The notes beneath the pieces are model-generated. The model worked only from the letters and a program-made list of their open reading frames with translations. It was not told where the DNA came from and searched no databases. This document shows positions 1-53,777 of a stretch of 64,000 nucleotides of DNA, piece by piece. Position 1 is the first letter of the stretch. Every line of letters begins with the position of its first letter. The DNA is from Glandiceps talaboti. Taxonomy: Eukaryota; Hemichordata; Enteropneusta; Spengelidae. The stretch lies in NCBI RefSeq assembly GCF_964340395.1, contig NC_135570.1:14553822-14617821 (forward strand), written 5' to 3'. The position numbers and the translations under genes were made by a program.

Positions 1-768
1 TCTTGATGGATGGTGTTGAGAAACAGATAAACCCACATCAATATTAGGTGCTTCCTCTTTCACAAGACAAAACTATAATGAAGATAACATTCCATTATCA
101 TAAATGCTGGTTGGAACGAAACCGTTCGATCACAGAGTGTGTCACATATTACATGTAATCCTCATCCGGGGATCAACGGAGGTATGTTCTATTATAGAAA
201 GATGCCTGAAAAATCCAGCACAAGTGACAATAACGAATACGGTAACATCTCCTTTGACAATATAATGAATGAACAACACTGGTCATAATAAAGTCAAGCT
301 TTACCAGAAATTAATATTTATTAGTGCAGTCGTTATGACGTAATCATAGACATCTATGACGTAATATAGATTTGCATATACTACACGTCATTGTGGTTAA
401 TGGGTCGTCACATTATCGAAACATAAGATATATTTCTTCTAAAAATTCATACACAGAGTTCATCACTGTCCTCACACCCTGTTTTGATAATATCGATTTT
501 CATTAGATGAACATTATCGCGTATTTGCAAAGGCGAATTGTCTATTCATCTTTCCTGATAATCATTTACTAACTAGTACCCGTGTATTTAGTGAAGGTTA
601 TTGTAAAAGAACTAAAAATATTCGAACAAAATGAATTACCATACACTCAGACCACTAGAATAGCGTCTGGGTCTTTATTATCAGATCGAGGATACTGCAG
701 TGAAATACGTGGACCGTGGTCACTGTGTCAATACGGGGATTAAACTGTTAATTAACTAACCTGTAATA
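1..768. other. Intergenic, no gene seen
   Basis: AT-rich sequence with no convincing exon on either strand. The only structured feature I see is the 14-bp palindrome at 345-358, listed separately. Confidence 0.5.
338..365. repeat. 14-bp palindrome CATAGACATCTATG with 7-bp flanking duplication
   Basis: A near-perfect palindrome at 345-358 is flanked on both sides by acgtaat (338-344 and 359-365). Its ends, CATAGA/TCTATG, match the larger palindromes at 6914, 10731, 12863 and 15239. It is the shortest member of that set. At this length chance cannot be excluded for this copy taken alone. Confidence 0.55.
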
Positions 769-966
769 CAACCCATAACACCAAAGTAAAGCACTTTTCT
801 GTATGTACCACAATCATTTATAGCATCCATATCAAGTACAACCCATAACACCAAAGTAAAGTGTTTTCTGTATGTACCACAATCATTTATAGCATCCATA
901 TCAAGTACAACCCATAACACCAAAGTAAAGTGTTTTCTGTATGTACCACAATCATTTATAGCATCC
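769..966. repeat. Tandem repeat, about 70-bp unit, three copies
   Basis: The phrase acccataacaccaaagtaaa recurs at 771, 841 and 910 (periods 70 and 69 bp). The third copy is interrupted at 966 by the fold-back element. The copy resumes at 1872-1890 with tagcatccatatcaagt. Confidence 0.9.
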
Positions 967-1871
967 CACAGGCATTTGTTTCCCGAGTTCAGTGGCTCAG
1001 AATATTTCTATCAGAATACAATAAAATGACGATAATATTGTTAATATTGACATATTAAACCAACACTATATGAAAGGGGTAAAATTACACTTGTTTCTGT
1101 GATCGCGCAGTTTCACTAAATGCGAAGGAAGACACAAGGTATGAAAGGCAGCCACCATTACCGTACGTAAACATGAACGTTCAACCGGCCGTTGTACTTG
1201 GCAAACATTTCGAAGATTTTACCTTCCGTCACTTCCTGGTTCCTAAATTTAATAATCTTCCGATAAATCGTGTCGTTGTTACAATCGGACCACACTTACC
1301 AAAGATATCAACGGATTTCTGACGCCATGTAGGGGAATTGGAGCAGATAAATTTTTTCTAACTACCTTCCGAGAACGTGATTGGATATCGATGTTTACAT
1401 GTTAAATGGAGAGCCGTTATCGGCCGTAACATGTGCTGCTGTTACATAAAGGGCTAGGACAATATGCAAAATAGGTAGTTAGAAAAAATTTATCTGCTCC
1501 AATTCCCCTACATGGCGTTAGAAATCCGTTGATATCTTTGGTAAGCGTGGTCCGATTGTAACAACGACGCGATTTATCGGAAGATTATTAAATTTGGGAA
1601 GCAGGAAGTGATAGAAGGTAAAATCTTCGAAATGTTTGCCCAGTACAACGGCCGGTTGAACGTTCATGTTTACGTACGGTAATGGTGGCTGCCTTTCATA
1701 CCTTGTGTCTTCCTTCGCATTTAGTGAAACAGCGCGATCACAGAAACAAGTGTAATTTTACCCCTTTCATATAGTGTTGGTTTAATATGTCAATATTAAC
1801 AATATTATCGTCATTTTATTGTATTCTGATAGAAATATTCTGAGCCATAACTCGGGAAACAAATGCCTGTG
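967..1871. mobile_element. Fold-back (long inverted repeat) DNA transposon, hAT-like
   Basis: Two roughly 400-bp arms (967-1367 and 1473-1871) are near-perfect reverse complements around a 105-bp spacer (1368-1472). The termini are CACAGGCATTTG.../...CAAATGCCTGTG. An 8-bp direct repeat, tagcatcc, flanks the element at 959-966 and 1872-1879. The inferred empty site restores the interrupted tandem-repeat unit. An 8-bp duplication and CA...TG ends are typical of the hAT superfamily. There is no transposase ORF, so it is non-autonomous. Near-identity of the arms suggests recent origin or gene conversion between them. Confidence 0.88.
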
Positions 1872-1879
1872 TAGCATCC

Positions 1880-2308
1880 ATATCAAGTGTCAACCTATAC
1901 TGTTTCATTTGCTAATTGACCACATTAGAAAGGCCACATATCATTGAGGCCATCCATGCGAGATATATGCAAATGCAATGGCGTGAAATTATTATACTGT
2001 AAAACGTTGTTATCACTGGATATGTGTGTTACACCCAATCCGTGAAACTGCCCAATTCATGAAATGTGCATGTAACTTTGCCCAGTTATGGAATGGTCAA
2101 CATTATGCAAATGAGAGTATAGATTACGATAGAGGCGGAATTAAATGTTGAGTTTTGAACTGTGGTTTTGATTATCAAAGCTACACTGAATTATAATAAA
2201 ATAAGAATTGTGAAGTGACGAGTTTGTAAATACGTGATAGTATAGATGTTTGATTGATATTTATTTTGTGTGTGTATGTCCTATGAAAAATGCTCATGTA
2301 TTGGGCAT
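1880..2308. repeat. Diverged flank of a dispersed repeat shared with 19767-19885
   Basis: The segment gtgtgttacacccaatc near 2025, followed by a cccaattcatgaaatg stretch, reappears inverted at about 19840-19885. The two copies then differ in length before both run into the identical 259-bp block. No coding potential is visible. Confidence 0.55.
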
Positions 2309-2567
2309 CACTAGTAGAAAAAATAGTACAGTTTACGACACTTTCCGTACTATAGTTCAGATTGAGTTCAATTCTGTACTTTTATGCTGATGAGGTGGAC
2401 GTTTCTGTACTTTCCCATTAGCGCCTGTCTAATCGGATTATACTCGATCTGAAAAATAGTTCAGATTGCGAGTCGGAAGTGATTTGAATACATTTGCATT
2501 TAGTTCAGAATATATTCATGAGTTCACCCCCATAACCGGGCAGTAAACAAATGAATATTCAAATCTA
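2309..2567 (+). repeat. 259-bp repeat, inverted identical copy at 19508-19766
   Basis: Reading both copies base by base I see no difference over 259 bp. They lie in opposite orientation about 17 kb apart. The block starts cactagtagaaaaaatag and ends aatattcaaatcta. I could not assign it to a transposon class: no clear terminal inverted repeats and no convincing target duplication. Confidence 0.85.
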
Positions 2568-2824
2568 TCTCGCCTGCATGTGATTCAAGGCGTGTACACT
2601 AATTGTTTGACCCACAGAAAACTAACAGTAACACTATTTAGTTAGTTAGTTGTCTGTGTTTGACCACATGAAGGCGGAGGGGGAGGGTGCAAAAGAAAAG
2701 GGTTACACACATGTACAGTGTATGATATGATGAGAGCTACATTTAATGTACATGTACATACGAACTGACATGTATACGTACATGTACAACTACGCTAGCA
2801 TGTAAACGTTAGCAAAAACTCTTA

Positions 2825-2870
2825 CTACTACCTCAGACCACTAAAATACTAGAGTGGTCTGAGCTACTAC
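2825..2870. repeat. 32-bp palindrome (CTCAGA...TCTGAG) with 7-bp duplication
   Basis: The palindrome at 2832-2863 has arms CTCAGACCACT/AGTGGTCTGAG. It is flanked by ctactac at 2825-2831 and 2864-2870. The flank is low complexity, so this duplication is weaker evidence than the others. Confidence 0.65.
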
Positions 2871-5800
2871 TACTTGCAAAAAGTATTTACAAGCATTTCC
2901 ATGTAGGTCAATGAAATATCACCTATGTGGGTTATACTTCAATAGTCGGTCAAACAGCGTAAAGGTCTACATTCTACAATGACAGACATGATTGTTCAAC
3001 TCGGTGCGATCTAAGATGAATTCACGGTGTATATTTGGTTACGTCGCCTTTGAATTGATGATGACGACTCGTCCGACCTAGACTGTTCTGGTCCAGTTTC
3101 AAGTGAAAGTCAGAATTATCACGGTGCCATTGATTATACTAACTGTGATGAAACTCGCCCACTCTAGTCTCTATGACTTCATTAGCCCCAAAATGCAAGA
3201 ACTTAATAATGGTATTGTAAATCGAAGTTCATGCATGCTCTGACTGTCGCCTGTTTTTTGTTTTCTTACATTTTATACAATTTTGAATTGTTAGCTTTGT
3301 ATTTCCTGCATTAATGTTGAAAACTGGTCTTTTTACTGTGCGTCTTCAATGCGCAGGTAAAATAGTGTGTTAATCTAGCATCGTGAGTACGCGCTCGCTT
3401 ATGGTTTCGCATACCTTGGACTGCCTGTCATTCAGTATTGTTTTAGCCTATTTATTTCTAAAGAAAAATGGTCTGTAAAGGGACTGCTTTAGTTGTCACA
3501 GTGCCTTTGTGGATTTATAAATCGATTTATGACAAGTGAGTCTACCTATTTTTTTTCCGACCCACTCAGTCAAGGAGTGCGATACACCAATCACCGTGTA
3601 TTTAGCTTTGTATACAGTGTATGGATAATAGCAAGTTTCGGGACTGAAAAATCATAAATTGTTTGTTAGACTTATTTTTTATTCAATGTAATCTGGGTTG
3701 ATTGGGAATTTTCAGATATCAGGATTTAAACCTCGGATTTCAACTCAGAAAGGCTATATTTTTTGCCTCAGTCTGAATTATATTAGTAGAACTCTCACCA
3801 ACGTTCCCAATGTGAAGTGATCTGAAAGTTGGTGAGAGGTCCTCACGTTGGATTGCAGCACTGCATGTTCTTGCCGAGAAGATAAAGAGGTGTAGTAATT
3901 ATGGTTTAAAACTGACTTTTACAAACGCCAGTCGTGTAGGGTCTATGATTTTTTATGTTGTGGATGAATGCGGCACTTTGATCTGAACCTCAGACCACTA
4001 TAATAGGAACAGACTAGAATCGCTTTTTGTTTTAGGTGTAAATGGGGCTCTAAACCCATCTTCTCTGTCGTGCATGGTTACCCTTCAAACCTGCTTCAAG
4101 CCGAACGTTGTGCAAAACGATACTTCGTGTCTTTACGGGGTTTTTTTGCAATTGTGTTTTAGTGGCCTGAGTCTGAACAAGTGTTCATACAGTACAGCAA
4201 AGTCCCACCAACAAAATCCATAGCAATAGATGCAGGAAAACCTCAGTATGGGCGACGGTGAAATCATGGTGTTAATTCTAAAACTTTTGAAAGCAAGAAC
4301 ATATGTTTGTGCAACTTTTGTATTAAAAGCATACCATTCCAATTCAAGGACAACGATTTTGTTCAGAAATGGTGGTAGGACTATAATCCTTCCTACCTCC
4401 TTCCTTCCTACCTCCATAGTTCAAAACCGCTGATCGTAACTGCATGGTACAGCGCATCTACATTTATTTCTGAGTTCCGGAGGGCATTATTTGATAAGTA
4501 CCCCATTCGTCCCTGTATTAGATCTTGTATAGTCATAACATTACAAAGATATGTGATTGTTGTGATCATTTCATTTGCTCATTATGTATTCAAGTGCAGT
4601 CAAATTTTCTTAGGTGTATGAGCAACTTTACTTCACCAATAAATTCTACTTTCTCACGAGTATTGTAAAATAACATGGCTATAATATGATACTACACAGC
4701 ACGTTTTAGACGTATTTGCATATCAATGTCATCTTCAAATTTTCTTGAAGAATTCTTCATCCAGATACTCTAACATACCTGCACACCAAATGTCAGCCCA
4801 TTCAATCGATTAGTTTTGCGGCTGTCATTCATTTTTACTTTGAATTCTTTTATTTACAAAACAAATGACAGTTTTTGACCCCAAAAATGACCAAAAACAG
4901 AAAATTGAAAATATCTTGCTGTCATAAACAAATATGAATAGACTTCTCGATAAAATTCCATTTACTCATTGGGAACATCGAACGTACAATGTCAAAAAGT
5001 CGCACTGGCGCAAAGTATCATGGGAAAACTTTCTTTGGCACACCTCACTTAGGAAATATAGCCGCAACAAAAAAGTTAATACTGGGATCATGTCTTTTTA
5101 AATTTAGCCTTTACCTTATAGAATAGAAGTATCAAAAGTGTATGCACTAACAAGTATCTGTGGTTTGTGCAAACATGCCAAATCGCTGATGATTGTTAAA
5201 CAACAAAACTTTGCATACCATTGTCATTAATAATTCTACGTTTTACTTCTGAATCAGTTCTAAACACTTACGATTGAAATGATCGTCAACGATACGCTGA
5301 TTTGTAGTTGAGGGTAATTAAAAATATTTTACAATGACGATTTCGACCATTAGCCGATGGAGGTGACCCCAACCAAACCTGTCACAAGATGTAAACTTGC
5401 ACACTTTTTGTGTGTCAATATGTCTGTTCTGGTCAGTCTGTTTTGGGAATTTATGGTACACTCACTGTCGCAGTTTTCAGCCAGGGTCACGTTATTCGAC
5501 GATTACTATTTGGATAAACACTGCAAAAAAGTAACACCCGTCATTGTTGCTTAGACATTTTCCTAGGGTCTTTTTCAACATGATTTATAGTAAGAAGTAA
5601 CTTTGTTGATGGTGTAGTCACTGAATTTATAACCCTACATCGATGACTTAGTAATTGAACACGCAAATGAATTATCATGAACACTGATCTACAACCGATC
5701 CGACCCTGGGATTCGATCACAATTCATGGCGTCGCTTGCCAGTCTATGTCTATGTCTTGGTCACGCAAACGTGAACACTCTGATATCTGAAACACTTCTT

Positions 5801-6842
5801 TGCTCCAGATACGCACCTTTTTTTCATGGAAAATGTCATATAGTTTGAAGTAAGCTGGGAGAAAATATTAATGAGATATTTGTAGATTTAAATAAGAGTG
5901 AAATGATAGTCAAGTGATTTTGAACCATCTCCGTGTATTTTGCTTTAGCGAAAACACTGACAACTACTAGTATGTGATCGCCCGGTCGTCAAATTGCAAA
6001 GAACAATGAAGAACAGCTGAACACCTTCCTGTGGTCATCTGTTCCTTTCCGTACCGACTCTCAATTGTTTTGCTGCGTTTACTTGTATATCTTTAATAAC
6101 AATAGTTTTTTAACTAACACCAATGTTCTTCCACTTTCTTTGCTTTCAAAATCAGTCACTTACTGTTGTAGCCAGTCAAAGACAGCCATCCTCAACTGGA
6201 AACACACCATGACAACAAAGATATACCAGAAAGTCATGACGTTTTGAATCATATCATTCGGCCCCCAGCCCTGTTTTTGACAATTAAAAAATGCTCTACT
6301 ACCCATCACAGCCAGTATCAATCAGACTTTTTCCATATATTATATTCCACCCTAACTTAACCCATATGACCGCCCCATTTATAACTCGTATGTCCGGACA
6401 TGAACATGATTGGCTTTTCGCTGACCAAGGGGTATGAGACCATATGTGGAAGTGGGGGATAAGCTTATCAAATATGACCGTAGTTCCATGTAAATTAAAA
6501 CTTATAGTTATGCTTATAGTCGTTACGTTTTCAGTTTATTGTGGTACCCGCTTGATGCTTTCTCTGAAGATGCCGACGGGATCAGTCTAAAATTCAGTTC
6601 TGGTGTATAAACTACAATGTATCACACATATCATGACTCTCACTATCCAATCCATCGGCTATACACTGGAGAACACAAGGACTATACTGACTGTTTTCTA
6701 TCCAGCACGAAATAAATTGAGAATACGTGGAACTTATATGTACATGAACAGTAGCTCCGACAACTCTGACAAGTCTCTATATACCCCACCAGGCCTCTTT
6801 GCTGGAGTTCGCGGAGCGTGTGTTGTCAGTGCTAATCTCGTC
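2871..6842. other. Intergenic, no gene seen
   Basis: Short ORFs here (up to about 94 codons) have no recognisable domain, no codon bias and no plausible splice context. Isolated fragments resembling the CTCAGACCAC palindrome family occur (for example near 3986) without the partner arm. Confidence 0.5.
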
Positions 6843-6983
6843 TAGTTCCTATCACCGTGTTCCTAAACAGTATCGTTACCATTTACACCTCCACTCACTA
6901 AACTTGGTTTAGTCATAGAAAATAGAGAGGACCCTCTCTATTGTCTATGGTTTAGTTAGATACCAATTGGCATCTGGACTAGA
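6843..6983. mobile_element. Short DNA element related to the 48-bp minisatellite unit
   Basis: Positions 6843-6900 contain an inverted, diverged copy of the 48-bp unit that forms the minisatellite at 41164-43915 (tagttcctat ... acctccactcac). The following segment, ggtttagttag...ggcatct, matches 14155-14187, where a second copy of the unit lies about 340 bp upstream. This suggests a dispersed non-autonomous element. It contains the palindrome at 6914. Confidence 0.55.
6907..6956. repeat. 36-bp palindrome (CATAGA...TCTATG) with 7-bp duplication
   Basis: The palindrome at 6914-6949 has a GAGAGGACCCTCTC centre. It is flanked by gtttagt at 6907-6913 and 6950-6956, an exact 7/7 match. Confidence 0.8.
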
Positions 6984-8004
6984 GCTAATCACGAGTCCAT
7001 CACAACGTGCATGCATCATTTTCTGATGTCCGCATTTGATTTGGACATTGAAGTAAATGATTTTACATTTCTGAGTCTCATTCGGTATTTTTCCACTGTT
7101 CTATATGTGGTAGCTACTACTTTTGGCACAATAAAAAAAAAGATGTTACGAAGACGAAAAAAAATATAATCGAGATGCACGATAAACATTTTTGGAAAAA
7201 AAGTCACATAAATGACTGCAGTATCCATATTTTTAATTGGCATGATTGAAGACTTTAAAAAATGAATGATGATAAAAGTGAGATTTTGCCTCAGTGATGG
7301 TTTTTCTATACAAGCGATAACATCACGATACCGGGTACTTCACAAACATTATCTCACTGACTTCAAAACCATAGTGACTAAATCGTTTCGTACAATTAGA
7401 CGGCATGATGTTTTTTACGTCTCGCACAAGCATATACAATGGTACACTTTACCAAATTGTAATAGACCATGTAAATATTACATTGACCGATGCAGATCTT
7501 GCTCGCGCAGGTTGGGTAGATTTATATGCTACGTTATGCCTTAGGCCTAAAAAATAACTGTTTGGTTTCTGTTACCCGACCCACCTAGTTTTTCACTGCC
7601 GACCCTTAACTTTTTTTTACGTGTTCTTGAAAAACTAACAAAATCGCAACAATTGTGAAGTCTCACGAGACATAGTGGATGCAGAAACTGACATCAACTT
7701 AAAAAGACAATATAAAACTGTTCCTCCAATCTGTAATGGTTGTACATCTAATGGAAAGAAGCCAATAACACAGAGATCATTTGGAAAAAATGGAAAACCA
7801 GAATTAGACACTCGCACATGAATAAAAATAAATCTACCTACCCCACCTATTTATTTATTTTGCCTAATCGGAACAACACAATTTTTTTAATAGGCCTATT
7901 TCCTAACTCAAGCTTAAATTATTGGACCCTTGTGAACCAAAAATGTGCGAAAATACAACGCCAAAATAGTAACGCTTTGCACGGTTTTCACACTGAGCAA
8001 TACG

Positions 8005-8048
8005 ATTAGATCATAGACAGTGAAGTTCTCCAGTGTCTCTGGTTAGAC
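8005..8048. repeat. Degenerate CATAGACA-type palindrome
   Basis: Positions 8012-8041 begin CATAGACAGTG and end AGTGTCTCTG with imperfect arm pairing. The flanks attagat and gttagac share 5 of 7 bases. It is probably an older member of the palindrome set. Confidence 0.35.
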
Positions 8049-10019
8049 CGACAACAATGAAACCGTTAGCGGGATCTCAGAGTCATACTCATTCACATAC
8101 AATTTTTTATGGCTGTTCACGTTGGTTAGCAACATCTCTGTCTTTGAGTTTGAATGAAATCGCTGCCATTCCCTACAGGAAACTGTTCTATGGAATTACA
8201 TGCCAGGAGCGCTTTCAATATCATAGAATGTTTTGTTGATCTTTTTTTTTCTTTTTTTCTTTTTTTTTCTTCTTTTTTTTTTGGGGGGGGGGGTCGACAA
8301 CTTTTACCAAGACAACCATTATATTAATCATTATAGTAACTACCTAGCATGGCTAATAGCCATACTGAGGTAGAACTGTAGATTGCTAAAATGTTATGGG
8401 TTGCTGGTTGTACACAACCTCAGCATATGCCACTTGACTTTCAGGCATTAATAGGTGGCAGAAATAGTCCGCACCAGGGCCGCTCTGTAGTCCGCATAAA
8501 AGGGTGACTAAGCCCAGACAATATTGTCCAGACCAGATTTGGAGGTGTGAACGCATTTAAAGCTGACTCGGTTCTAAATCTTGGTGCATATTCATGAGGT
8601 CGACACCTAGAAAATGAACCATGTGTACATTTCTTTTGTCTTTTGTTAGTTAATTTATGCGGGTAAACTGTGTCTTCACTAACATTTTCCACTAAAAGTT
8701 TCAAAATTGTCTTGTTTTTTGAAGGACTACTATAATAATATTTCACCGCCCTTGCTTTATTGTCATATCAGGAAAGTCAAGAACTTGACAAAAGCTATTC
8801 AAAACAAAGTAATCAAAGTTGTAAAACCAAAATGGTGCCGTGGAGAGTTGTGTCTGGTCATGTTCTGATCATGGAAGTATAACCCACGGTCTGATCTAGT
8901 AGCAGTATATCAACGACGAATCTACATTACAAACAAACAAACAAACAACACACACACACACACACACGGTGATATTAAAAAGCACGCAACACAAAGGTTG
9001 GTTCACATCCCTCGCATCAGTACCGGTACCCATTCTACTGAGTTATAAATATAAATCACATTCTCAGCTACAACATTGAACTTGTATGATACAAAAATCT
9101 TCAGAATGTGCGGGCCATATTTTCACTACCGGCATTGGCAGTCACCATCACTGCCTTTAAAAAAAATTAATACAGATAAATGGAAGCAAAAACAATCCTC
9201 TTGACGGTAGTTTAGTAGTCAGTTATGAATTATGTAACGTTAAATAACGATATTCAAATATTTCCCTCTATGCCTCCCATATACCGATAGTAAATCTTCA
9301 AACATCCATACAGACATGCGGACTTTGCTCCCTACTAGATACATCCATGTTTTACGTTACTTTCGTATTGCAAATTTAGCTGATGATGTCATGTCAAAGC
9401 CACGTGGTCTAAAAACCTGAATCTCCGTACATACATTTCGATATGAAATTATTTATCCGTGATGTTTAGAATTTTGGTCGGTCAATATAGTTTCAATGAC
9501 CAAGTGTGACCCCCACTGATGTCTAAAGTACTAATATCAGTACCTGACCGGCCATGGCCATGGCCTTGTTTTTGTTTTTGATTTTCTTCAATATTCAAAT
9601 CTACGTAATGTCTGGTTTGTTAGGCCATAAATTCCAAGCATATTTACCATGATATCACAAATATAGACCAGTTACAGAAAGTAATAAGTGTCAGCAAAAT
9701 ACTGTAATATCGACACTGTTTCACGGATTTTAGGGACGCTGGTGCTTGGATTATTTTACGGTTGACATTACCTAGCCAGTAATATAAGGAGTAGTACATG
9801 GGTATTTTATCCCTGGACTCTCTGTCTGTTTATATCGAAATGGAATAAGCTGAAACAGTTCTTCTTTGAGCAGGAAATATGTTGTGATTATGGATATTAT
9901 ATATATACATGTATATAATTGCCAACACATCGGCAACGAGAGTAATGACATTGACTATACGTAATATGTAAAGATGTAGTGTAAAATTGGAATACGGTCG
10001 TCAGGAACTAGATTAGGGT

Positions 10020-10190
10020 AGGGGGAGGCTCAGGAGAAAAATTGTTGTCACGGGAAAAAAACGAATTGGGACGTGCGTGAAAATTCGGATTGTCTGAAAG
10101 GGGCCCGGAGTCACGTACAAATATTTTGCTCATGAGTTGAACCAAATTTAACTCCAGGAGCAGACGTTTAACAAGCGTATTTTTAAAAGG
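10020..10190. repeat. Dispersed repeat, related copy at 15860-15995
   Basis: Shared order of phrases in the two copies: a G-rich tract, gtctgaaaggg or close variants, then ctcatgagttgaacca-like text, then caggagcag and gtttac. The copies are diverged and class is unknown. Confidence 0.5.
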
Positions 10191-10723
10191 GTGACTGGCA
10201 GAGAATGTGTGTCTCTTGAAGGGTAGACAATATACTCGCGATAGACTATGGGTTTCAGGCCACTGTGTCAGACGTGGTCTTGGAGGAGTCAGTACAATTC
10301 CTCCAAGAGTGGTAAGAGGCCAAGCCTGAAATAGACGGGTTGTGCGGCAAGTAGAAGTTTACATGCCTTGTCTGTGGTTTACATTGTGCACGCAAAACAT
10401 CCCACAAAACCGGCCATAACTAAAGCGGCATATCAGTAAATATGAAAAACGTGATCTTGGTAATTTGGATACCAGTTCTGAAAATATTCTCCGGGAAAAT
10501 AGGTTAAAATGAACATCAAGATAGCTGCCTATTTCCCATTGTTTATAAATCGTCAAGAGGTTAAGCTATCCACTCAGATGAACCACTCTTTGTCACTTTA
10601 TAATCTGGCATTATACATGGGATAATTTCCAAAATGTACATGTTTTATCGTTTCATTTTGGACTTTATAGAAGTTGATGACTAAAATTACCTTACCCTCG
10701 ATGAAAGTTATGAATGCGACTAG

Positions 10724-10761
10724 GTTTTACCATAGACAGGGTGGAGGGTCTATGGTTTTAC
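10724..10761. repeat. 24-bp palindrome (CATAGAC...GTCTATG) with 7-bp duplication
   Basis: The palindrome at 10731-10754 is flanked by gttttac at 10724-10730 and 10755-10761, an exact 7/7 match. Confidence 0.8.
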
Positions 10762-11623
10762 CTACTAGAATTAGTTGCGACAAGATTGTAAATACACATG
10801 GGCGAGTTTTGCCAGATTGCTTTATTTCAAGTGATTTGAAAATTGTGAATGGCGGACTTGGCCGTGGTCCATCGAATTGTCGAGTACTACCGTGGTGGCA
10901 CTAGTCGTTCCTCACTGGAACGGCAAGTGCCACCTTATGGCGATATTTATTGTCTTTGAACCTTTCTCAACAAATAAATCACACATAACTCCCCAAACGC
11001 TTCCATTCTAGAAATCCGGTGCCGACCCTAAACCTTTTTAATAAAGAAGAAAAATCAGTAAAATCGAGAAAATTGTGAGTGAAGTCTTGCCAGAAATGGT
11101 CATCAACTTAAAAAAGACAATAAAAAAACGCGGTTCTTCCAATCTGGAATGCAGAGCAGATGTCTTTGAAATAGAATTATTTAGTTTGGTTTAAAATTTA
11201 GTTGAAGTGGGCACAAAACTTGATTTGGTTCTGACTGTTCTGAATTTAGGGACACGAAATCGTCTCCCTGATGGCAGGAGTTCAAAGTGTTGGGACATAA
11301 TGTGGCCTTTGTCATTTACCATTTTCCCAGCTTTGTTTTGTACACGAGATGTAAACATTTCATTCAAATTAGTCTACTTTTCTTTACTAAACACATTTAC
11401 AATTTTGTTCAAGACACTCTTGTAGCTAGTCCCTAGACTACCAAACCAGCACAAAAAAGAAAATGTTAAACCGACTCAAAACTCCGATAGAATGTCTGTA
11501 ATACCTTGGCATTTACAAAATTTTAGGCCCCTCAATTGTTGTAGACAGTAAACTCTAGATTGACATTTCTTGTTAATGAAATCTGTGTTGGCCTTAACAT
11601 TTGATTTATTATCCAAGACTGTT

Positions 11624-11625
<2 letters not shown>

Positions 11626-11699
<74 letters not shown>
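11626..11699. repeat. (TA)n microsatellite
   Basis: Uninterrupted TA run of about 37 units. Reading frames through it are spurious. Confidence 0.97.
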
Positions 11700-11701
<2 letters not shown>

Positions 11702-11743
11702 TCACCTGTTCAACTTTAACATTGTCAATAAAAAGGTCGGGCA

Positions 11744-12600
11744 CTACTTTAGGGTTCTTCCTAAAGTCGACCTTTCGTCCAAGTAGTTTTCTTTACACCA
11801 AGTAACAAACCTATCAACTTCATCGAAATAAGTACGGTCAGAATTTGACAGGTCAACTAATGCAGAGTTATCAGAATATTTGATAAGTGGATTTGTATCG
11901 GTACCTGATGAGCAGTCATTTGTGTAAAGTGTAAATAGTTTGTGTGAGAGTATCGTGCTCTGTGAGGCACCCCTAAATGTTGAATGGAAGGCTGAACTTA
12001 ATTTTTGGTAGCGAACAAACTGGGAAAGGTTGACAAGAAAATCCATTATCCAGAGGATGAGTTTGGGGTTAACGTTTAAATAACTAAGTTTATGAGCCAT
12101 CATGTTTGGTTGACTTCTGTTAACGACTGATGAAAAATCAATAACCAATAGTCTTACAAATGAACTTGGTTTTTCAAGATGTGTATACGCATCGTGAAGT
12201 AATGTGAGAGTTGCATTATCAGTACCTCTATTACTTTAATATGTAAATTGGTATGGGTCAAGGTGTGAATGTTTTTGTGGGTTTTGACAAAGTAAAATAC
12301 GCTCGAAGCATTTCATCACAATGGAAGTCAGTGCTACAGGACGATGCCTTGGAAGTTTTTAGGGACCGGACAGATGGTAGATGTTTTCCAAATGGTTGAT
12401 ATCGTATGATCATTGTACGACCAATTGAACAATCTACTGGAAACACTAGCTAACTGCGATGCATAGACATTCAGTAACCTACCACATATGTTATCAGGAC
12501 CCATAGCTTTCCTTATATTTAGTTTCTTAAAAATAGACAACTCGTTTATCACTGATTTCAAATTAACTCTTCTTTTCTTCTTATTTACTCTCAAGATCTA
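11744..12600 (-). pseudogene. Decayed non-LTR retrotransposon reverse transcriptase (CR1/Rex-like)
   Basis: Two minus-strand frames together resemble the N-terminal half and catalytic core of a LINE reverse transcriptase. The upstream frame (12594-12334) contains KAMGPDNICGRLLN, then a stretch ending WKTSTICPVPKN, a typical conserved RT block. The downstream frame (12148-11744) contains VNPKLILWIMDFLV, then LFTLYTNDC, and the catalytic-box equivalent KYSDNSALVDL, where the second Asp of the usual DD pair is Asn. A frameshift and stops separate the frames, and no endonuclease domain is seen. A dead 5'-truncated copy is the best reading. Family assignment is by recollection of motif context and is less certain than the RT identity. 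Confidence 0.8.
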
Positions 12601-12855
12601 ACCCGATGTTATCTATTTCCTTTCCAAAATCGTGAATATCAAAGCGACAGTACATTACAACTTCGCCTCGCCACCACCCTGTGTTGCTTGGCAAGGTGGT
12701 AAATAAAACAAGTTTGCCTTTGGGATTATATTAACTGGGATTGTCGACACTGAATAATCCGGTCAATCATGGCACTGCGCTCATTGTATGTCACGGCGTA
12801 CAAGTATAAACGACGTTCATACTTCCATGACCATAGTTTCTGCGACCTGTCATTT

Positions 12856-12901
12856 GTTTGACCATAGACACTCCACCTTTGTGGAGGGTCCATGGTTTGA
12901 T
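12856..12901. repeat. 32-bp palindrome (CATAGACA...) with 7-bp duplication
   Basis: The palindrome at 12863-12894 has CTCCACC/GGTGGAG-like arms. It is flanked by gtttgac and gtttgat (6/7). Confidence 0.7.
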
Positions 12902-13036
12902 GGGATGCGTTAATTCTGGCAAACTTGTTTGGCAAATCGATCTGACGCAATATAGCTTGTGACCGTGGCATGCATAGCTTGGGTCAAAATCTATAACACC
13001 ATTAAAGTATAAATAATGTTTAAACTTCCACGATAA

Positions 13037-13087
13037 CACATACCTTTGAGAAATTATACTGACAGTATAATTACTCCAAGCACAGAC
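13037..13087. repeat. 37-bp palindrome (CTTGGAG-type) with 7-bp duplication
   Basis: Positions 13044-13080 carry the arms aattatactg/cagtataatt and end ctccaag. The flanks cacatac and cacagac match at 6 of 7. A second copy lies at 23388-23425. Confidence 0.72.
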
Positions 13088-13293
13088 TATTCTCGTGTCA
13101 AACTCCGACACGAACTTGTTTTTCCTTGAAGAGTATATCTCGTGAGACCTATGGAAATTATCAAAATCTATATTGTAGTTGAAAAGAGCAAGAATGAAAA
13201 GAGGGGAAATTTAAGGGACATCATTTCTATATACACGTGTATTGTGCAAAGAACCCGATATCTTTGACCGCGTTGCCGTCAACCGAGCAATGG

Positions 13294-13294
<1 letters not shown>

Positions 13295-13381
<87 letters not shown>

Positions 13382-13400
13382 TCAGTATATATATATATAT
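13295..13400. repeat. (TA)n microsatellite
   Basis: TA run from 13295 to about 13377, a short interruption (cagatcag), then another TA run to 13400. Confidence 0.96.
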
Positions 13401-13805
13401 AAGAGGTAAGTCATAAACTGAAGGAAAAGTGCTCAATACTGAGAAGTAGAGCTGTATTTACACAAAGTACACAAGTTATGGTACGGAGGCCGTTACGATC
13501 TTCAGACGACTAAATAACGGAAATTCAAGTGATAGAATTCGATGCGCGTTGTTGAGTGACATGGTGGAATGATAGAATGTATTTGTTTTCGTGGACGATT
13601 TAGTGGACGATCTAGTGGAATTAATCTCTAAAAAAAAAACATGAATCATGGTCTGAGTACTTCACAAATGTATTCAATGCTCAAGTCCAAAGTGATGAAA
13701 GTTTCTCGATTTCCATGATCTTATCAGATCCACCTTGATAGACATAAATTCAGGCATTAATGGTGAGATTAATATCCGACTGTAGTCTTTTGGACAAGGT
13801 AATTA

Positions 13806-14187
13806 CTTTGATAGTCTAGTTCCTATACTGTATCATTACCATTTATACCTCCACTCAAAGTATAGTCAGAGTCGTTACTCTAGAAGTCTTGAAATGCATG
13901 AGATGCAATTTAAAATTCATTTACAGCCACCCACACAGTCATTAACATCATGTCTTTGTTAATAAATCACAAAACTCTAACCAATAACACAGTCCCTCAT
14001 AAAGTTAGTGTTTATTGGGACAGTAATGTTCAAATGTGGTATATTTGTCAGCCCATGATGCTACTTATATACTGTTTACATCACCAAAACATTTAGGTTT
14101 CACTGATTGGGTGAACAACTTTTTGTGCTATTTGAGGGGCTTTTGGCTAGACGTGGTTTAGTTAGAAACCATATTGGCATCCAGACT
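13806..14187. mobile_element. Second dispersed relative of the 48-bp minisatellite unit
   Basis: The copy begins atagtctagttcctatactg and contains the inverted 48-bp unit. It ends with ggtttagttag...ggcatccagactatt, giving possible imperfect terminal inverted repeats ATAGTCTRG. No transposase is seen. Confidence 0.5.
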
Positions 14188-14392
14188 ATTACTTTGAAGG
14201 AGATCATTGAAGAACAATAAAAATAAAACTCAAGGTGTGGATATGGGATCAGTGTGGCATTCTACATAGACATTCTCCAACAATTCTTGTAGACATGTTA
14301 TGTAACCATTTTTTCTTCACGAAAGGCATGTTCCCACAGGAATCAATGGGGTAGGGGTTTCTAACATTGTCTTTTGAAAGTAAATTACATGT

Positions 14393-14860
14393 ATGTCAAA
14401 ACTAAAATTATTGTATTTACTAAGAGATGAAATTCTTAAGAAAATTGAAAAGTGGTTATTGGTGGTCATAAACTCGACGTTGTTCGCTTTTTATGAATAT
14501 CTAGGCGTGATTATGTCAAGCAGTGGTCTATGGTATTTAGCGCTTGCAGCTCAAGCGAGTAAAGCAATGATTGCGGTCATGAGTCAACTTGCAAAACTTG
14601 GGGACCTCCTAGTCAAAACTAAATTTAAAAGTTTTTGACTGTAAACTATTACCGATATTAAATTATACAGTGGAGATTTTGGGTTTTAATAGGTCTACTG
14701 AAACTGAACGTGTTCAAAGTAAATTTCAGTGTTATATTTTGAGTCGTATATAAACATATATGTAGTCTTTGAGTATGGGAGCTACAAAAATGCTTGACAA
14801 GTGTTCATTACGGGAAGTAGGCTGAAATGTTTTGAGATTGCTGAACGAGAGCTGCAAAAC
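14393..14860 (+). pseudogene. LINE reverse-transcriptase C-terminal fragment
   Basis: The plus-strand frame contains YLGVIMSSSGLW, then KAMIAVMSQLAKLGDL, a layout typical of the thumb and connector region after the RT catalytic box in non-LTR elements. Stops interrupt it from 14638. The following bases still resemble the usual continuation (PILNY...G) in a broken frame. It lies opposite in orientation to the LINE fragment just downstream. Confidence 0.65.
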
Positions 14861-14920
14861 TTTAACCTCAGACCACTTCTCCTCAGCCCTGGTTCAAGTT
14901 CTTAGGTCATAGTGGTGTAA

Positions 14921-14960
14921 ACTACATCTCAGACCACAATGTAGTGACCTGAGACTACAT
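14921..14960. repeat. 26-bp palindrome (CTCAGA...CCTGAG) with 7-bp duplication
   Basis: The palindrome at 14928-14953 has arms CTCAGACCAC/GTGACCTGAG around a short centre. It is flanked by actacat at 14921-14927 and 14954-14960 (7/7, not low complexity). Confidence 0.78.
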
Positions 14961-14989
14961 GCACATGTAGGCCCTACCTACTGGTATAT

Positions 14990-15860
14990 TATGTAACTGC
15001 ACTTGACGCCAGTGTGATTTCTAACTAAACTGTGTTATTGAAAGAACCGATGTGACGTCATCTGTTTTCTTTGTACCTGACACAATCCTAGCTGCTGTAT
15101 TTTGGGCATGTTCAAGAGGGACAATGTTTTTAGCTGGCAGCCCATACAGAAGGGCCATTCAGTAGTCGGGTATCGATGATATAAGTGCATGACCAAGGTT
15201 CTGACAAACTCCGTTTGTAAGATACTGGCGTATGCGACCATAGACAGTGGAGGGGCCCCCTCCACTGTCAATGATGCGACCTATTGTTCGGGGGTGAAAA
15301 AGAACTGATCTACATGTCAACGAGATGTGCTTCTTGAGGTTATAACGGTCATCAATTGTTACACAAATGGTACATGCTGAATCCACTAACTGCACAGAAG
15401 ACGATCCCATGTTGATGTGGTTCATGAGACGAGGAAGCCTGTTGAACTGAGACGTGATAAGGAGGACCTCGGTTTTGCCATCATTAAACTAGCTTATTTT
15501 GGGTCGTTTAATATCATGTGCAACAGTTTCCATCTCAGTTAGTTACTGTAGTTGACGTATGTGATTGGGGAAATATATTGGTAAATCTGGTTGTCGTCTG
15601 CATGTTGTTGCATATTGAGATTTTGATGTCGGATTAGCTTTCCAAGTGGTGATGTGTATAGACAGCATACGCGTGTAAGAGTGGACCAAGCACAGGGTTT
15701 TGTGACACTCCACACTGCAAATGTTTGGTTTCTGATATGCCTTGTACAGAAATGGACTGTTGTATATCTTTGAGGTATAAAGACTCTAGTCGAATGCCTG
15801 TAATACCGAGCTCGGAATAAACTTGAAATTATGCTGGAGTCAGAATTTACGGGGGGGGGC
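14990..15860 (-). pseudogene. Decayed LINE reverse transcriptase 3' region (jockey/L2-like)
   Basis: Read on the minus strand from 15860 down, a frame contains HADDNQIYQYIS, the YADD-type catalytic box with Tyr replaced by His. Lower down come DSACTICVTIDD and HISLTCRSV, followed by QNLGHALISSIPDY and MALLYGLPA, a characteristic end of non-LTR polymerases. Frameshifts and stops break it into at least three pieces, so it is inactive. A 42-bp in-frame gain inside this frame corresponds exactly to the 35-bp palindrome plus a 7-bp duplication at 15239-15280. Confidence 0.8.
15232..15280. repeat. 35-bp palindrome inserted in a LINE reading frame, 7-bp duplication
   Basis: The palindrome at 15239-15273 has the centre GGAGGGGCCCCCTCC. 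It is flanked by atgcgac at 15232-15238 and 15274-15280 (7/7). Translated on the minus strand it separates TIGRI from RQYL, which are adjacent in related polymerases. Confidence 0.85.
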
Positions 15861-15995
15861 ATGAACAAAATTGAGGTTCAAAGGGAGGGGGGCATGACAA
15901 TTGTGATGGTCTGAAAGGGCCCCCGAATATTCTGCTCATGATTTGAACCAAAATTAAACCTCAGGAGCAGTTGTTTACCAAGTAAATTTACATTT
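15860..15995. repeat. Dispersed repeat related to 10020-10190
   Basis: Carries the same phrase order (G-rich tract, ggtctgaaagggcccc, ctcatgatttgaacca, caggagcag, gtttac). Confidence 0.5.
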
Positions 15996-16008
15996 GTATA
16001 AGTGTATG

Positions 16009-18330
<2,322 letters not shown>

Positions 18331-18500
18331 GCTCCTTATAGTCTCGCTGCCAGACTCGAGACTATCGTCCCTAATCTGTTTACCGAGCGGCGCAGCCGCG
18401 AGAAGAGCGGGACCAGTCCCCCTCTATTCTCGCGGCTGCGCCGCTCGGTAAACAGATTAGGGACGATAGTCTCGAGTCTGGCAGCGAGACTATGCTCCTT
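18331..18500. mobile_element. 156-bp perfect palindrome with 7-bp duplication
   Basis: The ends ATAGTCTCGCTGCC/GGCAGCGAGACTAT continue as a near-perfect inverted repeat (18338-18493) with a loop of about 25 bp. It is GC-rich compared with its surroundings. Flanks are gctcctt at 18331-18337 and 18494-18500 (7/7; a 9-bp reading, tgctcctta, is also possible because the end bases are complementary). It contains no ORF. It is the largest member of the set of palindromes with 7-bp duplications. Confidence 0.88.
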
Positions 18501-19507
18501 ACAGCAGTTTGTTTTTCCCGCATATGCATACATTACCCATAATCCTTTTAAGTATTCTGCAGATATCTGTGCAATGTGCACTCATGACTCATGAAAATCT
18601 GGAATGCACTGATCGAAGCCAATTGTACAGTTATACTATAAAAACAGGAGTTATGAGTATAATTGAAATAAAACAAGAGAATAAGAGATGAGGGCCCTCA
18701 GAATCGTCACGTAGAGTGATATAACAGTTACATGGATGCCGGGCATGTACCCATAGGTACGGGCCCGGGGGGGGGGGTTTCTGCATGCCGAACGTCATTA
18801 AGTATTTCCTTTACTTTGGTGCTCATGATCGTAATTTGGATGATGCCCAAGATATTTGAGGCGTGAATACCTGTTGTTCTTCTAAAGGCTTGTTTATTAC
18901 TGTGAAGATCACACCCTAACACTTAATTGTTCTATAAACGACACATGGACAAGAATACTATTCCCATAGAGGTTAGTCTAGTTAATTCCTGATGGACCGT
19001 ATTTCGTTCAGCGTTACGTTGTACATAACACGGTCAGTCAGAAACTATAGACGACATGGACGACATGGATGCCATATAATATTCCCAATAGTCACTCAAT
19101 TTTACTTAGCTAGAAATAATGTCCACAGACTCAAATCTGTCAGCACGTCTCTACTGTGAGTTTGTTGACGCTATTGGCCGGTCAGGTTTGTTAAGAAGCT
19201 CCATACACTAGCAATATTTGTGGCCCAATTTTAAACTATTATTGGAAACGATTGTCATGTCATCTAAATCTGTATTACTATGCATCAAACGCGTAGAAAT
19301 GTGAAACACGTTTAGTGGTGGCGGTATGTAGTGCATAATGAAAAGGCGTACTACGAACATTTATTTCAAAATGAGCCCTGTGATATTACAATCTACGTAC
19401 GTCCTAACCATGTAGTTCATATCATAAGCCTGCTTATATACATACATATGTATCGAATACACTAGCTACACGTATAGCGTTTATGTACGTATTGATTGCA
19501 AGCACGG
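18501..19507. other. Intergenic, no gene seen
   Basis: Only short spurious ORFs and a G-tract near 18765. Confidence 0.5.
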
Positions 19508-19766
19508 TAGATTTGAATATTCATTTGTTTACTGCCCGGTTATGGGGGTGAACTCATGAATATATTCTGAACTAAATGCAAATGTATTCAAATCACTTCC
19601 GACTCGCAATCTGAACTATTTTTCAGATCGAGTATAATCCGATTAGACAGGCGCTAATGGGAAAGTACAGAAACGTCCACCTCATCAGCATAAAAGTACA
19701 GAATTGAACTCAATCTGAACTATAGTACGGAAAGTGTCGTAAACTGTACTATTTTTTCTACTAGTG
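19508..19766 (-). repeat. 259-bp repeat, inverted copy of 2309-2567
   Basis: Reverse complement of 2309-2567 without a difference that I can see. Flanks differ except for the related segment beyond 19767. Confidence 0.85.
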
Positions 19767-40424: not shown

Positions 40425-40438
40425 GGTTAATGGCAGTG

Positions 40439-41163: not shown

Positions 41164-41312
41164 GTAATGATACTGTATAGGAACTAGACTATGTGAGTGG
41201 AGGTGTAAATGGTAATGATACTGTATAGGAACTAGACTATGTGAGTGGAGGTGTAAATGGTAACGATACTGTATAGGAACTAGACTATGTGAGTGGAGGT
41301 GTAAATGGTAAT
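41164..41312. repeat. 48-bp minisatellite, left part
   Basis: Three units of the sequence built on ggtaatgatactgtatagg and aactagactatgtgagtgg. The array is interrupted by the hAT element starting at 41313. Confidence 0.95.
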
Positions 41313-45732: not shown

Positions 45733-45936
45733 CTACCCCGATCGTCGTTAAATGAAACCAAAATACGTTTGGTTGCAATGAAAAATGATCTAAAATTACC
45801 TCAGAACTATGAGTCTAATCGGTCGTGAAAATCCATCCACGTTGGTTGCCATTTTGTACACACACGGATGTAAATATAAATAACCTGTGTGTGACCTGAA
45901 GCAGCCTGCTTTCGATGTTTAGTAAGATGGAATATG

Positions 45937-51942: not shown

Positions 51943-52189
51943 ATTGTTAATAACTGATGTTTACATGCTGAAACATCAATGGATGTCATCTCCATAAATG
52001 TGAATAACATCTTTCACTTTACTAAGGGGAATCTATGAAAGCTGCTGGACCATATCCATGAACAAACAAAGAAAAATTACCAAAAAGACAAAAAAAACCC
52101 TAAAAATGAAAAACACCAAAAAAATCTTTTTAGAAAAAATTCAAAAAGCATATATAATATGAACACCAAAAAAAAAGGGAAGAGGCCAG

Positions 52190-52455
52190 TGAAAATATTC
52201 ACTGATACAGAGAACGGATCAGTGATTGGAAGTTTATGGGGGGAGGGGAAAAGGATAAAGTTGGTGAAAAATCATGTTCACTGATGCTGATAACGGATCG
52301 GTGATTGGAAGTTTATGGGGGAGGGGCAAATGAAAAAGTTGGTGAAAAATTCACTGATGCTAAGAATTGATCGGTGATTGTAAGTTTGTGGAAGCGGGGG
52401 TAAGGATAAAGTTGGTGAAAAATTCACTGATGCTAAGAAGTGATCGGTGATCGTA
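52190..52455. repeat. Tandem repeat, about 70-bp unit, in probable 3' UTR
   Basis: About four diverged units of aaagttggtgaaaaatcac-like sequence plus cactgatgct, gatcggtgattg and a G-rich tract. It starts 250 bp after the stop of the 649-residue gene. Confidence 0.85.
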
Positions 52456-53337
52456 AATTAAGAGAATTGGTAGAAGATTGGCAAAATCCAGATCATGTCA
52501 ATAATACTCATAGACAAACTCAGTTCATATAATGAAGTACTTCAGATAATCAAATTTATCATTATTAATTATCATTTGTTTAAAAGCCATAAAAAATAAT
52601 ATGTGGAATAATGACAACATTTTGATAACTGAGTCCTGTGAAAGGAATAGTCTTTACTAAGTAATTCAAAGAATACAAAACAGACAGTGATTAGACTTTA
52701 TACATCTGAAATTAAAACCAGGTTACCAGAACTCAGAACAGTCTTATAGACACATACAACATTATGTATGTGGACAGTTTACCTAAAAAAAATGCAAAAC
52801 AGGCAATCCAGTAATATCTGCAGAACACTTACATATTCATCAATTTATTATCAACTTCAGTGTATGCAGAATTATATATCTATTTATCCACTTAGCAGTC
52901 AGCCAATCTCAGGAGTATTGGCACACAGTGTGTGTAGATCGGTGAGTATTTAAAAGAAATGGGAAAAATATTTTTAAAAAATAAAAAAATAAAGAAATAA
53001 AAAAATTAAAAAATAAAGTAAAAAAGAACAAATTTAAACAAATATGTAAAACTGTCACTGTCAGACAATAGTGAATGATATCTGTTGATGTCAGCTGAAT
53101 ATGTTGTTCATTTTACTTGAAGTTGTCTACTCAGTCCTTCACAGTGGGACCAGTCAGTCTTGGATTGAAAGTCTTGAGATAACCAGGTAGTGTGATAAAA
53201 AATACTACCAAAATTGTAATGTGTATTTATTTATACTCATGAAATATACTGTCACAGTGGTATTGTCAGTATTGTGAGTACACCTTACAATGTGATGATG
53301 GTAATGTAAATAATGTATATATCACATTCTGTGGTGA
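52456..53337. other. Probable 3' UTR, no gene seen
   Basis: AT-rich with an A-rich low-complexity stretch at 52965-53030. No reading frame is convincing. Confidence 0.45.
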
Positions 53338-53343
53338 AATAAA
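53338..53343 (+). terminator. Candidate polyadenylation signal, 649-residue gene
   Basis: AATAAA is followed within 30-60 bp by GT-rich sequence (tgtctcttgtg ... tttgtatg). It implies a 3' UTR of about 1.4 kb. Confidence 0.45.
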
Positions 53344-53743
53344 AGTATTGTATATAGCAAACTATGTCTCTTGTGATAAATAGTATGATTTGTATGCTAG
53401 TGTCCTGATACGATTATTCAGTTTCTGGTTATTACATTACAAAGTACTGATCTTTTGATGCATGTGTTAGGACTTTCTGTGGTGTCCATTTGCTAAATTG
53501 GAACTTGTCAAAATGTACACAAAGCAATGTTTAGAGGACCTTAGAAATCACTGATATCATGAAATGTACACAAAGCTATGTCCACAGGACCCCAGTAATC
53601 ACAGTGTCTAAATACACATTTTACCATGAAATGGGACACCAGCATACCAGCTGTAGTAAAAATGGATGGATATACAATTGTTGTGTAATTTTTATTGTAA
53701 TGTCAATTTTAGTTTTTTACAACTAAACACTTAATTCTGTTAC

Positions 53744-53777
53744 CCTGAACCTCAGATCTAATGGTCTGAGCCTGAAC
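53744..53777. repeat. 20-bp palindrome CTCAGATCTAATGGTCTGAG with 7-bp duplication
   Basis: The palindrome at 53751-53770 is flanked by cctgaac at 53744-53750 and 53771-53777 (7/7). Its ends match the palindromes at 2832 and 14928. Confidence 0.75.

Follow-up and report, generated by a model that had tools for sequence, protein, structure and literature searches.

The window (the whole stretch of 64,000 nucleotides that was analysed) contains a set of tiny palindromes flanked by 7-bp direct repeats, and the question raised by this locus is how these palindromes were produced. We propose, with a probability of about 0.8, that they are excision scars (footprints) of cut-and-paste transposons of the P superfamily. 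An element would insert at a GTTNAAC-like site and duplicate 7 bp, and the transposase would later release it by cutting within both terminal inverted repeats, roughly 17 nt from their outer tips. Both target copies would stay behind in the chromosome together with a short stub of either end, and the break would be closed by end joining that involves trimming, microhomology or brief filler. The retained ends would be inverted copies of each other, and therefore the scar would read as a tiny palindrome.

Palindromes in the window

All 11 palindromes reported by the first-pass annotation were found where it had placed them. The 7-bp flanking repeats also agree with its description, since they are exact at eight palindromes (345, 2832, 6914, 10731, 14928, 15239, 18338, and 53751) and carry one mismatch at three (12863, 13044, and 23388). 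Three of the four end types that it distinguished (CATAGA, CTCAGA, and CTTGGAG) form one class, whereas the fourth, the ATAGTCTCG type at 18338, represents a separate family. The palindrome at 18338 can also be read with a 9-bp repeat TGCTCCTTA and the end TAGTCTCG. Two other copies of this family are exact in the 9-bp register and a fourth copy matches at 8/9 positions (by eye). The palindrome is also embedded in a larger high-copy repeat, with identical flanks elsewhere. The ATAGTCTCG type was excluded from the class because of the 9-bp register and the larger surrounding repeat. Two members that the first-pass annotation did not list (2613-2658 and 56725-56744) were added, which brings the class to 12 palindromes in the window with ends near CATAGAC, CTCAGAC, CACAGAC or CTTGGAG. 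The ends are inverted in all 12. The features are listed in Table 1.

Table 1. Coordinates of the proposed scars, their relatives and the surrounding elements in the window.
Feature	Position	Strand	Description
Scar, CATAGAC type	345..358	.	14 bp; TSD ACGTAAT
17.5-kb CACTA-like element	2309..19766	.	270-bp terminal inverted repeats starting CACTAGTAG
Scar, CACAGAC type	2613..2658	.	46 bp, 14-bp arms and 18-bp middle; TSD TTTGACC, exact
Scar, CTCAGAC type	2832..2863	.	32 bp; TSD CTACTAC
183-bp non-autonomous relative	3989..4171	+	Ends CTCAGACCACTA / TAGTGGCCTGAG; TSD TCTGAAC, exact
Scar, CATAGAC type	6914..6949	.	36 bp (17+2+17); TSD GTTTAGT; within the 6841-6983 element
Scar, CATAGAC type	10731..10754	.	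24 bp; TSD GTTTTAC
Scar, CATAGAC type	12863..12894	.	32 bp; TSD GTTTGAC/GTTTGAT
Scar, CTTGGAG type	13044..13080	.	37 bp (18+1+18); TSD CACATAC/CACAGAC
Paralogue of the 6914 site, empty	14136..14190	+	Right end of the 13811-14189 element; single GTTTAGT
Scar, CTCAGAC type	14928..14953	.	26 bp; TSD ACTACAT
Scar, CATAGAC type	15239..15273	.	35 bp (17+1+17); TSD ATGCGAC
Foldback repeat, outside the class	18338..18493	.	156 bp; TAGTCTCG ends; 9-bp repeat TGCTCCTTA
Scar, CTTGGAG type	23388..23425	.	38 bp; TSD GGTTAAC/GATTAAC
Scar, CTCAGAC type	53751..53770	.	20 bp; TSD CCTGAAC
Scar, CACAGAC type	56725..56744	.	20 bp; TSD AACTCAC/CACTCAC

The window was scanned for exact palindromes of 13-200 bp with 6-bp arms. 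The scan returned 25 matches with an exact 7-bp repeat, where 19 lie within one tandem array (48301-48630) and six lie outside it (345, 2613, 6914, 10731, 18338, and 53751). The chance level in first-order Markov sequences is 0.45 such matches per 64 kb. A second scan, with tandem repeats masked and trimming of up to 3 bp allowed, gave six exact-7 palindromes against a permuted mean of 0.44 (maximum of three in 200 permutations). The corresponding counts at other repeat lengths are two for 5 bp, none for 6 bp, none for 8 bp, and one for 9 bp. The loose end-motif scan of the window returned 14 matches against 2-4 in shifted controls, and 12 were accepted while those at 37240 and 45859 were judged to be chance. 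The same loose scan of the 50 kb adjoining the window gave three matches that were all judged to be chance. The window has no tRNA and no Rfam match at the gathering score.

The CACTA-like element houses 8/12 scars. Elements of the CACTA/EnSpm group have ends starting with CACTA and create TSDs of 2-3 bp. Both ends of the 17.5-kb element start with CACTAGTAG and CAT is found at each side; this was seen on both sides in one copy. The scar at 10731 recurs with its flanks at C1:139040, and the 251-bp stretch that surrounds it has 40 matches when the window is counted. The paralogue that lacks the 6914 insert has only one GTTTAGT, in an alignment that covers the right side alone.

Genome-wide counts and the 7-bp duplication

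The pattern CATAGACN{0,30}GTCTATG, which admits CATAGAC-type inserts of 14-44 bp only, has 3,706 matches in 590 Mb compared to 198 for the reversed control. The flanks of 50 fetched places carry an exact 7-bp repeat in 25 cases and a repeat with at most one mismatch in 36, while permuted flanks give 0.42 and 1.20, respectively. The remaining 14 places have no 7-bp repeat within one mismatch. Exact repeats of 5, 6, 8, 9 or 10 bp were found at none of the 50. The check proposed by the first-pass annotation, a genome-wide peak at 7 bp, thus holds for one end type that was searched by its ends. The claim that the 7-bp repeats are target-site duplications (TSDs) of a DNA transposon is upheld. Elements of the hAT group create TSDs of 8 bp, and hAT was rejected as the source since no exact repeat of this length was observed.

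When 180 kb from other stretches of the genome was scanned for exact-7 palindromes without regard to their ends, the peak was absent (one match at 7 bp and four at 6 bp). In the same sequence, the loose end-motif scan gave six matches against 7, 11, 12, 6, 34, and 3 in shifted controls, a count that proves nothing by itself; four loci (L007, L009, L017, and L024) were accepted and two (L014 and L015) were judged to be chance. L019 (4327-4357) was excluded as its flanking repeat has two mismatches. Viral contigs searched with an exact 16-mer and a 20-mer gave two matches, judged to be chance, and none, respectively.

Target motif and candidate transposases

GTTNAAC ranks first among the 64 palindromic heptamers for both the 12 window TSDs (z 5.7) and the 36 genome TSDs (z 10.1). 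The alternative GTANTAC fits the window TSDs less well (z 3.6). The position table of the window TSDs was compiled before the motif of 1360 was met in the literature, while GTANTAC of Galileo was known beforehand. The element 1360, a member of the P superfamily, is described with a modal TSD of 7 bp and the target motif GTTNAAC (PMC3276498); its comparison with the scars covered these two features, and both agree. Galileo, also of the P superfamily, is described with a TSD of usually 7 bp and a palindromic target GTATTAC / GTANTAC, but it differs from the scars in its long inverted repeats (PMC4168063). A 7-bp duplication is therefore not without known makers, as these two P-superfamily elements both produce one. 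The TSD lies within the 7-8 bp of this superfamily and the target is palindromic with the form GT..AC.

The zebrafish THAP9 element Pdre2 has 13-bp inverted repeats that start with CATA (PMC10983969), similar to the CATAGAC ends, and has internally deleted relatives (PMC7776569). Its TSD of 8 bp and its end CATACCTGTCAAC are different. The CTCAGAC and CTTGGAG ends do not start with CA, unlike those of P and Pdre2. Dada, which the first-pass annotation had mentioned, is similar in its TSD of 6-7 bp. However, Dada-U6 and Dada-U1 are described without terminal inverted repeats and the targets of Dada mostly as RNA genes (PMC3706591, PMC8869645), whereas the scars have inverted ends; Dada was rejected on these published features.

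The P-transposase domain PF21787 has 13 matches in the genome, and five of them are in frames of 724-794 aa. Candidate P-type elements lie at C14:24546894, C19:16472492, C24:18354572, C23:13025420, and C13:7428182. The domain is also carried by a 693-aa frame, for which the PDB match to P transposase is weak (E 0.033). The Pfam scan of this one frame, which is cut by the edge of the fetched sequence, listed PF21787 alone and no THAP or GTP-binding domain. No matching pair of terminal inverted repeats and TSDs was found in 6.5 kb around one P-transposase copy, an interval that does not reach the ends of the element. One pair of transposase loci is identical, which could reflect duplication instead of transposition. 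The 30 frames scanned in the window include no transposase, and a search with the 599-aa frame gave no homologue at E 1e-5.

The best surviving alternative, to which we give roughly one chance in nine, is that the scars derive from a transposon outside the P superfamily that makes a 7-bp TSD and likewise leaves long end pieces. All arguments for scars apply equally to such a transposon, the P-type transposases here are only candidate users of these ends, and hobo (hAT) likewise favours GT...AC targets, GTNCGNAC (PMC3276498). However, the TSD of hobo is 8 bp, and TSD length and GTTNAAC jointly match 1360 (PMC3276498). P elements are described as distinguished by their staggered cut, which at 17 nt is unusually long (PMC7776569), and P-type transposases do occur in this genome.

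Ends and junctions of the proposed scars

The 183-bp relative at 3989..4171 is an unexcised, intact element of the CTCAGAC type. The 2832 scar matches its left end at 16/17 positions over the first 17 nt and is divergent beyond. The L024 scar from the 180-kb scan matches the left end at 15/17 over its first 17 nt and the right end at 13/15 over its last 15 nt (by eye).

Excision of the Drosophila P element is described to leave the two TSD copies, each followed inward by no more than 17 nt of the adjacent end, with microhomology or filler where the two end pieces meet (PMC2895639 section 7, Table 1). The scars resemble these footprints in both TSD copies, in end pieces that seem to reach a similar limit, in junctions with microhomology, blunt joints or filler, and in similar lengths. 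The Drosophila footprints are different in that their TSD is 8 bp and they were made by assay in spn-A mutants (PMC2895639), while the scars have 7 bp, are natural, carry substitutions, and occur at thousands of places. The lengths in the window (14-46 bp) are not distinguishable from those of the Drosophila repair isolates (KS p 0.79), a set of 44/66 isolates from which 22 with damaged TSD had been dropped. All 50 genome lengths differ from this set (p 0.030), and the 36 with TSD give p 0.075. Templating of filler from the flanks is not significant in any of the 12 window scars (lowest p 0.125), including the 14928 scar, where the middle contains the TSD in reverse complement (ATGTAGT) as possible templated filler.

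The first-pass annotation regarded the palindromes as minimal MITEs, namely 14-46-bp elements that transposed themselves with two ends sufficing. We consider this improbable, and distinctly more so than a source outside the P superfamily. The 7-bp duplications and common ends are consistent with minimal MITEs, as are one 27-bp insert that recurs unchanged at two sites with differing TSDs (L043 and L074) and the three window palindromes that are near-perfect over 35-37 bp, with a fourth over 38 bp save one indel. However, copies of one MITE family are alike along their whole length, and this likeness is absent here, since 35 of the 36 genome inserts with TSD are distinct (several end subtypes are mixed in, which raises the diversity). 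Two loci (L098 and L099) also represent one site with common flanks and different scars of 33 and 26 bp, although L099 could alternatively have arisen from L098 by loss of 7 bp. The junctions are similar to published P repair products, which are also recurrent (one junction was obtained 14 times; PMC2895639 Table 1). The ends are common but nearly every middle differs, and the inserts are built like the repair junctions that excision leaves.

Inserts with one arm also argue against minimal MITEs as they retain the 7-bp repeat. The one-armed sample consists of 20 places, out of 100 listed for the 15-nt end CATAGACCCTCCACC, that have no opposite 15-nt end nearby. A 7-bp repeat was found within 60 bp in 12 of these 20, exact in nine, and the second arm of some is cut to 3-4 nt or less. 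Past nt 15, only nt 17 is still common (16/19 distinct loci), and no base exceeds 53% from nt 18 onward. This is suggestive of arms that end near 17-18 nt, a limit that is weakly supported because the search pattern already fixes the first 15 nt and arm identity to nt 15 is partly built in. Among the most symmetric scars, moreover, an arm is just half of the palindrome. The least probable origin is that gap repair was interrupted after excision and left internally deleted copies instead of joined ends. Repair of P excisions by SDSA that finishes with end joining has been described (PMC2895639), but gap repair should often retain more than 18 nt of the end, and across nt 18-30 of the 19 distinct loci, selected by their first 15 nt, no base is common to more than 53%.

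For the excision scars of P-superfamily elements that we favour, the sequences demonstrate the 7-bp duplication, the target motif, common ends with variable junctions, an unexcised relative, and the presence of P-type transposase genes in the genome. Where the transposase cuts, how the break is repaired, and the agency of these particular transposases are inferred.

Implications

Scars of P elements are usually studied as laboratory repair junctions. On balance, we favour the view that the several thousand scars of a single end type, within a total that perhaps reaches ten thousand or more, constitute a natural archive of P-type excisions that are apparently more numerous than intact elements. 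No report of such a genome-wide archive was found among titles and the starts of abstracts, in a search that mostly excluded subscription literature. Caution is advised where short palindromes lie between flanking repeats, since a count of tiny transposons may wrongly include them. If the proposed origin is true, each archived event tells a former transposon site, a transposase cut, and a germline end-joining repair. The cut position and target choice of an uncharacterised transposase, and the germline end-joining spectrum of a non-model animal, would then be readable from an assembly. The natural archive would also show that P-type elements have been very active outside the well-studied insects and fish.

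Palindromes of the window and their flanking repeats

All 11 small palindromes that the first-pass annotation had described in the window were found in place, with 7-bp flanking repeats that are exact in eight cases and carry one mismatch in three, as it had claimed. Two further members of the class were identified. A scan of the window with tandem repeats masked and trimming of up to 3 bp allowed gave six palindromes with exact 7-bp flanks, compared with a mean of 0.44 and a maximum of 3 in 200 permutations. The same scan gave none at exact flank lengths of 6 and 8 bp and one at 9 bp.

The palindrome at 18338 (ATAGTCTCG type) is also compatible with a 9-bp repeat, with the end TAGTCTCG. By eye, the 9-bp register is exact in three of four copies of this family and matches at 8/9 in the fourth (window 13811, 18338, and 6841; L008, fetched from the same genome). 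This palindrome lies within a larger repeat of high copy number and has identical flanks in both other copies fetched. It was left out of the class on account of the 9-bp fit and the larger repeat. The single set proposed earlier holds for the other palindromes, and the ATAGTCTCG type is a separate family. A 48-bp minisatellite has a unit similar to the left terminus of the 13811 (TAGTCTNG) element, and would then be an array of tandem transposon ends.

The resulting class of 12 consists of related end types near CATAGAC (5), CTCAGAC (3), CACAGAC (2), and CTTGGAG (2). The lengths are 14, 20, 20, 24, 26, 32, 32, 35, 36, 37, 38, and 46 bp. The inserts have common ends and unlike middles. Three among the longest exhibit the arrangements 17+2+17, 18+1+18, and 17+1+17, and the 38-bp palindrome has the same symmetric plan plus one extra base.

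Coordinates of features (window positions unless a fetched stretch is named)
Feature	Coordinates	Observation
Further class member	2613-2658	
Further class member	56725-56744	
183-bp element	3989-4171	
17.5-kb element	2309-19766	
48-bp minisatellite	41157-41312, 43210-43914	
905-bp foldback	967-1871	91% self-inverted; ends CACAGGCATTTG; 8-bp repeat TAGCATCC; host site a minisatellite
Diverged piece of the foldback	L014 2744-2887	
Dispersed inverted-repeat family, ~210-365 bp	26081-26445, 31890-32240, 33735-34075, 49216-49541, 54073-54283	most ends near TTAAAGTGGCCATATGGATGAG
Frame	11744-12235 (-)	resembles LINE reverse transcriptase fragment by eye; without Pfam match
Partnerless single CTCAGACCACT ends	646, 14867, 42800	at 42800, ~410 bp and left flank common with L025:6434 (larger duplication)

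Genome-wide pattern and target motif

The pattern CATAGACN{0,30}GTCTATG occurs 3,706 times in the genome that contains the window (590 Mb, 47 contigs) compared with 198 times for the reversed control. Sequence with 20-bp flanks was fetched for the first 50 distinct places listed, which all lie on contig C1. Repeats of 7 bp are exact at 25 places and have at most one mismatch at 36, compared with 0.42 and 1.20 for permuted flanks, and exact repeats of 5, 6, 8, 9, or 10 bp are absent among the 50. The genome-wide 7-bp peak, a test set beforehand, was thus observed for the CATAGAC-type pattern at 50 places on C1. One of these places (L031) is a copy of the window palindrome at 10731 with identical flanks, so the places are not all independent events.

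The symmetrised target positions of the window read G-T-T-N-A-A-C. GTTNAAC ranks first of 64 palindromic heptamers for both the 12 window sites (z 5.7) and the 36 genome sites (z 10.1). The same motif and the same modal target-site duplication (TSD) of 7 bp are reported for 1360 of the P superfamily (PMC3276498). Galileo, also of the P superfamily, has mostly 7-bp TSDs, with GTATTAC as its reported target (PMC4168063), and the P element is reported with an 8-bp TSD and the motif GTCCGGAC (PMC3276498).

Palindromes as probable excision scars

The palindromes are read here as scars, the excision footprints of P-superfamily transposons. P transposase is described as making an unusually long staggered cut of 17 nt (PMC7776569). 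In most joined P excision sites reported from Drosophila spn-A mutants, the two TSD copies enclose a remnant of each element end, at most 17 nt long, with microhomology or filler between the remnants (PMC2895639). The window inserts are built on the same plan. The 12 window insert lengths are indistinguishable from the Drosophila set (KS p 0.79), which comprises 44 of 66 isolates in Table 1 of that paper after 22 with damaged TSDs were dropped. The 50 genome inserts show some difference (p 0.030; p 0.075 for the 36 with a TSD). The palindromes had earlier been taken for minimal MITEs, but 35 of the 36 genome inserts with a TSD are distinct, unlike copies of one MITE, although these inserts mix several end subtypes. 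A literature search of partial coverage returned no report of genome-wide P scars.

For the 15-nt end CATAGACCCTCCACC, a one-armed sample of 20 was picked from the 100 places listed, by the criterion that no opposite 15-nt end lay nearby. At least two (L092 and L094) still have both 7-nt ends. A 7-bp repeat lies within 60 bp in 12 of the 20 (exact in nine), and in some of these the other end is cut down to 3-4 nt or fewer. Past the 15-nt pattern, sharing still holds at nt 17 (16 of 19 distinct loci), and 53% is the most that any base reaches from nt 18 onward. This arm divergence, rather than a parent element, is what fits, and does not prove, a cut near 17-18 nt. Two fetched stretches (L098 and L099) represent the same site with the same flanks but hold unlike scars, the outcome expected of two excision events; alternatively, one of them may have lost 7 bp later.

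The 183-bp element, a probable unexcised relative, has ends CTCAGACCACTA and an exact 7-bp TSD, TCTGAAC. By eye, the scar in the fetched stretch L024 matches it at 15/17 of the first 17 nt and 13/15 of the last 15 nt. The element around the 6914 scar has a paralogue at 13811-14189, a candidate empty site that lacks the insert and contains GTTTAGT once. The right side aligns over ~35 bp (88.6%), and there is hardly any alignment on the left side, where the 6841 element is differently deleted. No intact full-length parent with CATAGAC ends was recognised among the 20 loci fetched.

Transposase genes and scar density

The P-type RNase H domain (PF21787) has 13 matches in the genome, all above the cut-off, and five are in frames of 724-794 aa. 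Two loci, C14:24543900-24550400 (L122-L120-L123) and one on C19, are 99.97% identical across the whole 3.8 kb compared, by either recent transposition or duplication. For one of the two, 6.5 kb of surrounding sequence showed no element borders, so it is by inference that these transposases belong with these palindrome ends. Some 2-3 kb downstream of the C14 frame, there is a CATAGACAATAG...CATTGTCTATG palindrome as well as a CTTGGAGTAATT end.

The 17.5-kb element has 270-bp inverted repeats (98.5% identical) that start with CACTAGTAG (CACTAGTAGAAAAAATAG...), and CAT is present on both sides. Of 127 candidates for an internal 251-bp stretch, 40 match at ~100% identity, including the window, and in two fetched copies the similarity breaks off no more than a few bases from the end of the element. 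No Pfam transposase was found among the frames scanned. It appears to be a CACTA-like element of very large size that amplified recently. It holds eight of the 12 scars, and the other 46.5 kb of the window holds four. Four scars were accepted in 180 kb elsewhere in the genome in a scan with noisy controls. Extrapolated very roughly from these four events of a noisy-control scan, the genome would carry ~13,000 scars if that sample is representative.
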